From Candidatus Aceula meridiana (GTDB lineage: Bacteria > Omnitrophota > Gorgyraeia > Zapsychrales > Aceulaceae), in the NCBI GenBank assembly GCA_030765185.1, contig JAVCDE010000030.1, positions 1-48,481 on the forward strand: a stretch of DNA of 48,481 nt, read 5' to 3'. The notes beneath the pieces were generated by a model that made no database searches, had not been told where the DNA came from, and saw only the letters and a program-made list of their open reading frames with translations. Numbering within the stretch: position 1 is the stretch's first letter; each line of letters opens with the position of its first letter. The position numbers and the translations under genes are program-made. Positions 15,695 to 17,804 of the stretch are shown in pieces.

Positions 15695-15765
15695 AATAAT
15701 AATTTATCCAGTGAGGCTGGATTAATCCGTCTGCCGTGATTTAGAGGCTGGCTCATGAAATGGAG
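15695..15765 (+). promoter_or_regulatory. Structured leader, diverged copy of the recurrent element (E3)
   Basis: ATCCAG and CTGGAT form a six-pair hairpin around TGAGG, directly followed by TAATCCG. A second stem follows, GTCTGCC (15728-15734) with GGCTGGC (15745-15751), then CTCAT and a GGAG ribosome site. The hairpin ATCCAG-N5-CTGGATTAAT occurs identically in stem and flank at 39231-39250. The element precedes the micro-protein start. Confidence 0.4.
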
Positions 15766-15771
15766 AGTGTT

Positions 15772-15936
15772 TTGGCAAAAGATAATTATTCATATCAGAA
15801 ATATCAAAAAGAATTAAAGAAGAAAAAGAAGGCTGAAGAAAAGATGAAAAAAAAGTTAGCCAAAAAAGAAGCAGAGGCTGCCGCTGCGGCTAATCCTGAA
15901 GTTAATCTTGAAGTTGCACCTGAAGAGGCAAATTAA
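15772..15936 (+). CDS. Lys/Ala-rich micro-protein
   Basis: A 54-codon frame starting at TTG 15772, with GGAG (15762-15765) at correct spacing; ATG 15760 in the same frame is a less well placed alternative. The product starts MAKDNYSYQKYQKELKKKKK, continues as a highly charged Lys/Glu/Ala helix, and ends in an acidic tail (EVAPEEAN). It looks like a family of short Lys-rich proteins seen in environmental bacteria. Function is unknown; the charge suggests binding to RNA or other acidic polymers. It is preceded by a structured leader and followed by the fluoride riboswitch. Confidence 0.6.
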   Translation: MAKDNYSYQKYQKELKKKKKAEEKMKKKLAKKEAEAAAAANPEVNLEVAPEEAN

Positions 15937-16021
15937 GAGAATTGAGAATTTAAGGTTTTAGCAGGATAATTTTAAAAATTTTTAATATGGATTTCTTAGG
16001 CTTCAGTGCATAATAATTCAT

Positions 16022-16093
16022 AAATGGCGATGAGGTTCGCCGACGTAACCGCCTAATGGCTGATGACCTCTACTTTCACAGTAGAGGTTTTTT
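16022..16093 (+). promoter_or_regulatory. Fluoride riboswitch (crcB motif) with terminator 1
   Basis: The stretch 16025-16073 matches the fluoride aptamer closely: TGGCGATGAGG, then TTCGCC, a linker, ACCGCC, a short loop, GGCTGATG and ACCTCTAC. P1 pairs GGCG (16026-16029) with CGCC (16038-16041), and P3 pairs GCC (16051-16053) with GGC (16058-16060). The pseudoknot pairs GAGG (16032-16035) with CCTC (16067-16070). CCTCTAC (16067-16073) can instead pair with GTAGAGG (16081-16087) followed by TTTTTT, an intrinsic terminator. Fluoride binding should therefore keep transcription on. It lies upstream of a cation/proton antiporter, a gene class known under fluoride control. Confidence 0.93.
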
Positions 16094-16130
16094 AAATCCT
16101 CTACAATAAATGTGGAGGATTTGTTTTTTT
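16094..16130 (+). terminator. Second intrinsic terminator of the fluoride leader
   Basis: AAATCCTCTACA (16094-16105) pairs with TGTGGAGGATTT (16111-16122), 12 pairs including one G-T, around a five-base loop. A run of seven T follows at 16124-16130. The left arm contains a second copy of CCTCTAC (16098-16104), which can also pair with GTAGAGG (16081-16087) of terminator 1. Confidence 0.65.
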
Positions 16131-16145
16131 CAGGAGATCTATCTT

Positions 16146-17804
16146 ATGGCATTAAGTATCGCAGAATTAATCATTTTAAGCTTGATTGTTGACTGGCTGT
16201 TTCGCCGGTGCAATATTCCGGGACTGGTGGGTATGCTTTTGGTGGGTATTGCCATCGGCCCATATGTGTTGGGACTCTTGAATCCGGCTTTAATATCCGT
16301 TTCGTCGGATTTGCGAATGATCGCGTTGATTGTGATTTTGCTGCGCGCTGGTTTTGAGCTGAGCAAGGAAACATTACGTAAAGTCGGATTTCACGCTTTT
16401 TTACTTTCCTTTATCCCTGCCATTTTTGAGGGTGTCGCAATTACCTTTCTTGCTCACTCTTTTTTGCATTTAAGTTATATGGAATCGGCAATTTTAGGCT
16501 CAATCCTTTCTGCAGTTTCTCCTGCGGTTGTAGTCCCTTTGATGATACGGTTCATTGAACAGCGTAAGGGAGTAAAAAAGGGAATCCCAACCCTTGTATT
16601 GGCGGCGTCTTCTATTGATGATGTTTTTGTTATCGTGATTTACAGCGTCCTTATCGGTATGTACACAGGCACAAAAGTGAACATTGCCTGGAAGCTTTTG
16701 GGAATTCCGGTCTCAATTTTTTCCGGCATTGCAGCCGGGCTTTTGATCGGGTTTATTCTTTACCGGATCTTTGAGAAATTTAACCCCCGAGCAACCAAGC
16801 GTCTTTTAGTTATTCTGGGTGTTTCCATCTTGTTTGTGAGCATTGAGCACTGGATGGAACCATTTTTTCCTTTTGCGGCGTTGTTGGCGGTCATGGCCAT
16901 CGGTTTTGTAATTTTGGAACGAAACGAGCACATGGCACACGAAATGTCTTTGAAGCTCGGCAAACTGTGGGTTTTTGCAGAAATTATTTTATTTACGCTT
17001 GTTGGGGCGCAGGTGAATTTGCAGGTTGCTCTAAAGGCTGGCTTGATGGGGAGCCTGATTGTATTCTTGGGCCTCATCGCCCGTAGTATAGGAACGTATC
17101 TTTCTTTGTTAAAAAGCAATCTGACATTTTCTGAAAGAATTTTTGTTGTGATTGCCTATCTGCCTAAAGCCACGGTTCAAGCCGCGATTGGAGGTGCGCC
17201 GCTTTTGGCCATGAAGCTCGCCGGCATGAACACGCAGCCTGGTGAGGTGATTTTGGCAGTGGCGGTCTTAAGTATTCTTTTAACGGCTCCGGTTGGCGCT
17301 TGGGCCATTGCTTTTGTCGGTAACCGTGTTTTAAAGATCGCGCCTTTGGGTTTTGAAAAAGGTCGCGAAAAAAAAGAGGTCACACAAGATGACATTATGA
17401 ATTCTTTTCAAATAAGCGCGTTGATGGATAGGGACATCCCCACAGTCCGCGTAGGCGATTCGATTGAAAAAGTCTTGAATTATTTCTCGAATTATGATTA
17501 TTTGATTTGTTCGGTCGTTGATCTAAAAAACAAATTTGCTGGCATTATAAAACTCGAACATATTCGGGCGATTTTAAATGATCGTAGCTCTTGGAAAATT
17601 GTTTTAGCACATGATGTTATGCAGCCTTTGGCTCAGATTGCCTGTCCGTCGTTTTCCTTGAAAGAGGGGATGACAATAGCACAAGATTTAGAATTAGAGG
17701 AAATTCCTGTTGTTGACCAATCCTCAAAAAAGATTGTTGGTATCTTGGATATCCGTAAGGCCAAAAAATTCTTAGAACAAGAATCTTTGGAATTACGGCA
17801 GTAA
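16146..17804 (+). CDS. Cation/proton antiporter with C-terminal CBS pair, fluoride-controlled
   Basis: A 552-aa protein. Residues 1-400 are a CPA-type sodium/proton exchanger with about 12 helices; the ion-binding helix carries Asp-Asp (AASSIDDVFVI), and PKATVQAAIGGAPLL marks a later conserved helix. Residues 420-545 hold two CBS domains, likely sensing nucleotides. The start at 16146 has AGGAG (16132-16136) at good spacing and gives a normal N-terminus; the in-frame codon at 16110 lies inside the terminator hairpin. The riboswitch indicates a role in fluoride tolerance, perhaps by ion or pH balance. No CrcB or CLC-F gene is present in the window. Confidence 0.88.
   Translation: MALSIAELIILSLIVDWLFRRCNIPGLVGMLLVGIAIGPYVLGLLNPALISVSSDLRMIALIVILLRAGFELSKETLRKVGFHAFLLSFIPAIFEGVAITFLAHSFLHLSYMESAILGSILSAVSPAVVVPLMIRFIEQRKGVKKGIPTLVLAASSIDDVFVIVIYSVLIGMYTGTKVNIAWKLLGIPVSIFSGIAAGLLIGFILYRIFEKFNPRATKRLLVILGVSILFVSIEHWMEPFFPFAALLAVMAIGFVILERNEHMAHEMSLKLGKLWVFAEIILFTLVGAQVNLQVALKAGLMGSLIVFLGLIARSIGTYLSLLKSNLTFSERIFVVIAYLPKATVQAAIGGAPLLAMKLAGMNTQPGEVILAVAVLSILLTAPVGAWAIAFVGNRVLKIAPLGFEKGREKKEVTQDDIMNSFQISALMDRDIPTVRVGDSIEKVLNYFSNYDYLICSVVDLKNKFAGIIKLEHIRAILNDRSSWKIVLAHDVMQPLAQIACPSFSLKEGMTIAQDLELEEIPVVDQSSKKIVGILDIRKAKKFLEQESLELRQ

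Follow-up and report, generated by a model that had tools for sequence, protein, structure and literature searches.

The window (the whole stretch of DNA analysed, 48,481 nucleotides) carries a fluoride riboswitch, recognised by its defining sequence features, and the interpretation that this riboswitch acts on two terminators through a relay strand is supported by computation. It is probably a fluoride ON-switch in which two intrinsic terminators, T1 and T2, stand in series, and in which one pseudoknot acts on both of them through the relay strand. The elements of the leader and the gene behind it are displayed in Table 1. The RF01734 match spans the full model (1-64) with a covariance-model score above the curated cut-off, and it is the sole aptamer of this class detected in the whole 1.9 Mb genome. 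The MFE structure of the leader (16017-16134, -43 kcal/mol, z = -6.2 relative to shuffles) consists of the aptamer helices, P1 and P3 both being present, together with T1 and T2. Among relatives, the pseudoknot pair GGAGU/ACUCC covaries to GAGGU/ACCUC. The promoter candidate is weak, because approximately 3 such sites are expected by chance in the region. Directly upstream of the leader lies a short reading frame rich in Lys, Glu, and Ala (15757-15936, + strand).

Table 1. Positions of the riboswitch elements and of the regulated gene in the window
Feature	Position	Strand	Details
Candidate sigma-70-type promoter	15942-15970	+	TTGAGA-17-GATAAT; 10/12 consensus
Fluoride riboswitch aptamer, RF01734	16017-16079	+	cmscan 53.0 bits against a gathering score of 34; E 5.6e-12
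Pseudoknot strand 1, GAGGU	16032-16036	+	in P1 loop; 5/5 complementary to 16066-16070
Pseudoknot strand 2, ACCUC	16066-16070	+	doubles as base of the T1 5' arm
Terminator 1 (T1) hairpin	16065-16089	+	terminator-like call; 10 bp; -12.9 kcal/mol; U-tract 16088-16093
Relay strand, GUAGAGG	16081-16087	+	T1 3' arm; also 5' arm of predicted antiterminator
CCUCUAC	16098-16104	+	T2 5' arm; also 3' arm of predicted antiterminator
Predicted antiterminator hairpin	16081-16087 with 16098-16104	+	7 bp; loop UUUUUUAAAU; -10.0 kcal/mol
Terminator 2 (T2) hairpin	16093-16123	+	terminator-like call; 13 bp; -15.6 kcal/mol; U-tract 16120-16130
Shine-Dalgarno-like AGGAG	16132-16136	+	9 nt 5' of ATG, from sequence
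Na+/H+ exchanger (PF00999) with CBS domain, regulated gene	16146-17804	+	Pfam E 1.6e-43 and 4e-09

The preliminary description had placed CCTCTAC at 16067-16073 and again at 16098-16104, with GTAGAGG at 16081-16087, and these positions are exactly right. It had also assigned the first CCTC to the pseudoknot, which agrees with the pairing found: strand 2 starts at A16066 and continues through the CCTC of the first CCTCTAC copy. The two terminators said to share a strand are both called as terminator-like hairpins, and the T1 3' arm and the T2 5' arm are complementary. The predicted antiterminator formed by these two arms is mutually exclusive with both T1 and T2.

From this arrangement a mechanism can be proposed. 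Without fluoride, the strand 16066-16073 would quit the pseudoknot and pair with the relay strand, giving T1, and polymerases passing T1 would then meet T2 as a second barrier. T2 would form in this state, since the relay strand is engaged in T1 and no competing partner is free for the 5' arm of T2. With fluoride, the pseudoknot would keep ACCUC, T1 would be blocked, and the freed relay strand would pair with 16098-16104 as this segment emerges. The antiterminator so formed would take the already spent U-tract of T1 as its loop, and would hold the 5' arm of T2 until polymerase clears the U-tract of T2. With both stops cancelled, the antiporter gene would be transcribed. T1 would serve as a terminator and at once as the anti-antiterminator of T2.

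To what extent this layout recurs was seen from RF01734 searches at the level of family, order, class, and phylum of the window (384 genomes in the phylum) and in a selection of other families. The tandem layout of T1 and T2 is present in 10 loci from 7 families: the window, L024, L029, L030, L034, L044, L046, L051, L112, and L113. All 9 leaders other than that of the window come from its phylum, and the GAGGU/ACCUC pseudoknot exists in all 10 loci. T1 alone is found in roughly as many other GAGGU-type leaders of this phylum as are tandem. The tandem form was not seen among the GGAGU-type leaders compared, nor in the 2 other phyla searched, one containing a Spirochaetales record and the other a Calditrichota record (82 genomes). 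In an IMG/VR pattern scan for the CCTCTAC triplet, 11 contigs matched and a fluoride aptamer was visible at the match in none of them; the GGAGT-type analogue of the triplet gave no matches there, and plasmid and phage searches with the window leader gave no useful match.

Several kinds of genes stand behind the 10 tandem leaders. Na+/H+ exchangers follow 4 of them (the window, L034, L044, and L112) and DUF6062 proteins another 3 (L029, L046, and L113), with enolase behind L024, histidine phosphatase behind L030, and glutamine synthetase III behind L051. Therefore, the platform is not tied to one gene. The preliminary description had pointed to other crcB leaders as the place to look for the repeat. 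The layout does exist in 9 relatives, but these precede genes other than crcB, and the switch of the window likewise precedes a Na+/H+ exchanger gene and not crcB. It is rather likely that a recurrent platform is represented here, distributed over several gene families within one phylum, in which two serial terminators are cancelled by a single strand held by the ligand, the 3' arm of T1 acts as the antiterminator relay of T2, and two efficiencies are multiplied without a second aptamer.

Taken by itself, the 7-bp match in the window is unremarkable, and the case is made by the relatives. At least 7 pairs with the window relay strand (G-U allowed) were formed by 54 of 805 random terminator 5' arms, a frequency that would suit a chance origin, in which two unrelated terminators happen to have a heptamer in common. 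Such an origin is extremely improbable and is excluded because the relatives carry the same layout. Additionally, the ordered triplet CCTCTAC-N(5-12)-GTAGAGG-N(5-15)-CCTCTAC occurs once in the 48 kb window and was absent from all 100 dinucleotide shuffles of it. A control of neighbouring terminators, based on all terminator-like hairpins on both strands of 2.75 Mb (approximately 1.0 Mb of the window's genome plus the other loci), also speaks against chance: 8 fluoride pairs shared a complementarity of 7-10 bp, and 31 unrelated non-fluoride pairs never exceeded 6 bp.

Whether the shared strand is selected was evaluated from an alignment of the 10 loci made with MAFFT, in which structure was not used. 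The preliminary description had expected the T2 arm to be conserved and to covary with the relay strand, and both are seen once the 9 further leaders are added. Of 80 cells (eight pairs in 10 loci), 78 are paired in the antiterminator helix (74 Watson-Crick), compared with 74 (69 Watson-Crick) in the T2 stem itself and 79 (71 Watson-Crick) in the T1 stem. One A.C mismatch in the helix belongs to L113. Sliding the partner strand by 1-3 columns reduces pairing to 39-55%. Two antiterminator pairs show two-sided compensatory change (A-U versus G-C). Among 500 shuffles, two doubly changed pairs were reached in 33 and the covariation score in 3; with so few pairs (2) and with related sequences in the alignment, covariation is support and not proof.

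The serious rival is a ligand-blind duplicate terminator. T2 would then be a local copy of T1, fixed and independent of the ligand, and its complementarity to the relay strand would be a by-product. A precedent for such behaviour is Bc1, a c-di-GMP-I riboswitch of the Bacillus cereus group, which resembles the window in having one aptamer and two Rho-independent terminators, 28 bp apart; in Bc1 the ligand unfolds T1 yet T2 stays intact and masks the response, whereas T2 of the window is predicted to be relieved through the relay strand (PMC11218506). T2 is also the more stable hairpin in the window, and its 5' arm resembles the T1 5' arm in all 10 loci. Since the loci are related and these arms are alike, part of the complementarity could come from terminator duplication. 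However, the outermost pair (column 62) has C in 7 of the 10 T2 arms, Watson-Crick with G of the T1 3' arm, where the T1 5' arm of the same seven loci has U in six and a non-pairing G in L051. Therefore, the T2 arm follows the 3' strand of T1 and not its 5' strand. Moreover, in L029, L030, L034, and L044 the T2 5' arm has 1-2 mismatches with its own 3' arm and matches the T1 3' arm fully, keeping the antiterminator helix whole. A T2 blind to the ligand would also leave the gene largely off. On this evidence the duplicate explanation is unlikely, and control of T2 through the relay strand is the preferred reading.

The relay logic put forward in the preliminary description was followed by folding the window transcript stepwise, with and without the pseudoknot strands blocked, and the predicted states were obtained. 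For the locked state, the strand-1 constraint was set at 16031-16035, within the P1 loop; the result was unchanged in a run constraining the ACCUC strand only. Without fluoride, T1 arises once its 3' arm emerges and reaches 0.99, and T2 arises when approximately 16116 has emerged, with polymerase near 16130 under a 14-nt footprint, and stands at 0.96-0.99 with polymerase near 16130-16132. When the pseudoknot is locked, formation of the antiterminator coincides with the emergence of 16102, and it remains at 1.00, compared with 0.00 for T2, up to the emergence of 16118. Only once polymerase is beyond the U-tract is it overtaken by T2. Stepwise folding gave much the same over footprints of 10-14 nt.

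At full length, T2 of the window wins at equilibrium even when the 5' strand of T1 is removed or locked, and its ligand dependence is predicted by folding during transcription. Because of the difference in stability between T2 and the antiterminator (Table 1), the second-stage control must be kinetic. Fluoride binding, termination at both sites, and this kinetic order are what we infer for the window switch. The window would therefore provide a direct test of kinetic control, as T2 is expected to prevail at equilibrium but not while transcription is in progress. The balance differs among the relatives. T2 is less stable than the antiterminator hairpin in L029, L044, L046, and L113, so that timing is less important in these loci. 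In six loci (L024, L030, L034, L044, L046, and L112), T1 can have an equilibrium competitor in the antiterminator when fluoride is absent, and the T2 backup may thus be weaker in them.

The position of T2 relative to the start codon bears on another explanation, namely that T2 is an inefficient terminator and that fluoride controls it mainly through translation or RNA stability, the helix of the T1 3' and T2 5' arms exposing or hiding the Shine-Dalgarno sequence. The T2 hairpin of the window ends approximately 9 nt 5' of AGGAG, and the start codons of L029, L030, L046, and L113 lie 0-10 nt from the T2 U-tract, as this explanation would have it. AGGAG of the window is nevertheless outside the T2 stem, and all 10 loci have a U-rich tract after T2. 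A mainly translational role is very unlikely because in three relatives (L024, L034, and L044) the start codon is 53-165 nt beyond T2, too far for direct sequestration. Termination at T2, relieved through the relay strand, accordingly remains the preferred reading.

Among the gene classes associated with fluoride riboswitches, Na+/H+ antiporters rank second, after exporters (PMC11139923). A scan of genome contigs with the window antiporter gave three relatives, one of which adjoins a fluoride aptamer of gathering score that is without T1 and T2. Homologues of the window antiporter with similar first residues are located behind fluoride aptamers in L037 (a Spirochaetales MAG), L087, L107, L112, and L198; 4 of these 5 are in other phyla, and some are without any terminator. 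DUF6062 genes were found repeatedly directly 3' of fluoride aptamers, confirmed by Pfam in the three tandem loci and probable in L041, L081, and L093, judged from similar N-termini. This hints at a fluoride-related role for the family.

The crcB fluoride switch of Bacillus cereus has a single terminator, whose 5' arm the pseudoknot overlaps (PMC11077080, PMC13273304), and its read-through without fluoride in vitro is 28% (PMC11077080), an example of the leakiness of riboswitches. Single-terminator fluoride switches are like the window in aptamer, in ON logic, and in overlap of the pseudoknot with the T1 5' arm, an overlap that is typical of fluoride switches acting on transcription. In the papers describing them one terminator is modelled (PK and P4), whereas the window has two (PMC11077080, PMC13273304). 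The 2026 study, in which 1901 fluoride-switch variants were profiled, does not mention in its text a second or tandem terminator or an antiterminator hairpin (PMC13273304).

Anti-antiterminator platforms resemble the window in their cascade of three strands, namely one held by the ligand, a relay, and the 5' arm of the terminator; the window relay strand is complementary to the T2 5' arm as well as to the strand held by the ligand. In anti-antiterminator fluoride leaders the first hairpin has no long U-tract and is no clear terminator, whereas in the window this hairpin is T1 itself. In the window platform a single stem serves as direct terminator and as anti-antiterminator. Fluoride leaders of the plain anti-antiterminator type seem to exist as well. 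In L085, L095, L101, and L106, from the phylum of the Spirochaetales record, the 3' arm of the first hairpin matches the terminator 5' arm by 6-10 bp; of the four matches, only that of L085 is not significant. Both platform types and the combined form are present in this set of fluoride leaders, which suggests that the two types are linked by an evolutionary path.

Outside riboswitches, the erm(K) attenuator is similar to the window model in that one event is thought to cancel serial terminators through alternative pairing. Its sensor is a ribosome stalled on a leader peptide, whereas that of the window is an Rfam aptamer. Two adjacent Rho-independent terminators are cited for erm(K) (PMC4335068). 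For the rimP-leader of Gammaproteobacteria, a second tandem terminator with a potential antiterminator is described, as in the window; the passage on it names no ligand aptamer and describes no shared relay strand (PMC2965389). The preliminary description knew of single-terminator fluoride switches but of no tandem form, and literature searches, in which subscription journals were thinly covered, likewise gave no riboswitch with one aptamer cancelling two terminators by a relay strand. If the mechanism holds, the efficiencies of two terminators governed by one pseudoknot would be multiplied with little additional sequence, and the tandem layout could be copied into synthetic switches.

Several other fluoride leaders have unusual arrangements. 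According to a review of tandem riboswitches, fluoride is among the classes not found in tandem (PMC9481103). Two fluoride aptamers follow each other on one strand, 66-138 nt apart, in L205 (1295-1362 and 1501-1568, +), L186 (1501-1567 and 1643-1707, +), L202 (1501-1603 and 1370-1434, -), and L091 (1693-1752 and 1501-1562, -), the second match being just under the Rfam cut-off in L186 and L202. L006 has identical copies of aptamer plus gene start at 1501-1563 and 1873-1935, 372 nt apart, which arose by recent duplication or are an artefact of assembly. In L010, L019, and L021, a terminator-like hairpin 3' of the aptamer repeats the CCGCC segment of the aptamer; judging from these letters, the 3' arm of the hairpin could pair with the aptamer, possibly as another switching design.
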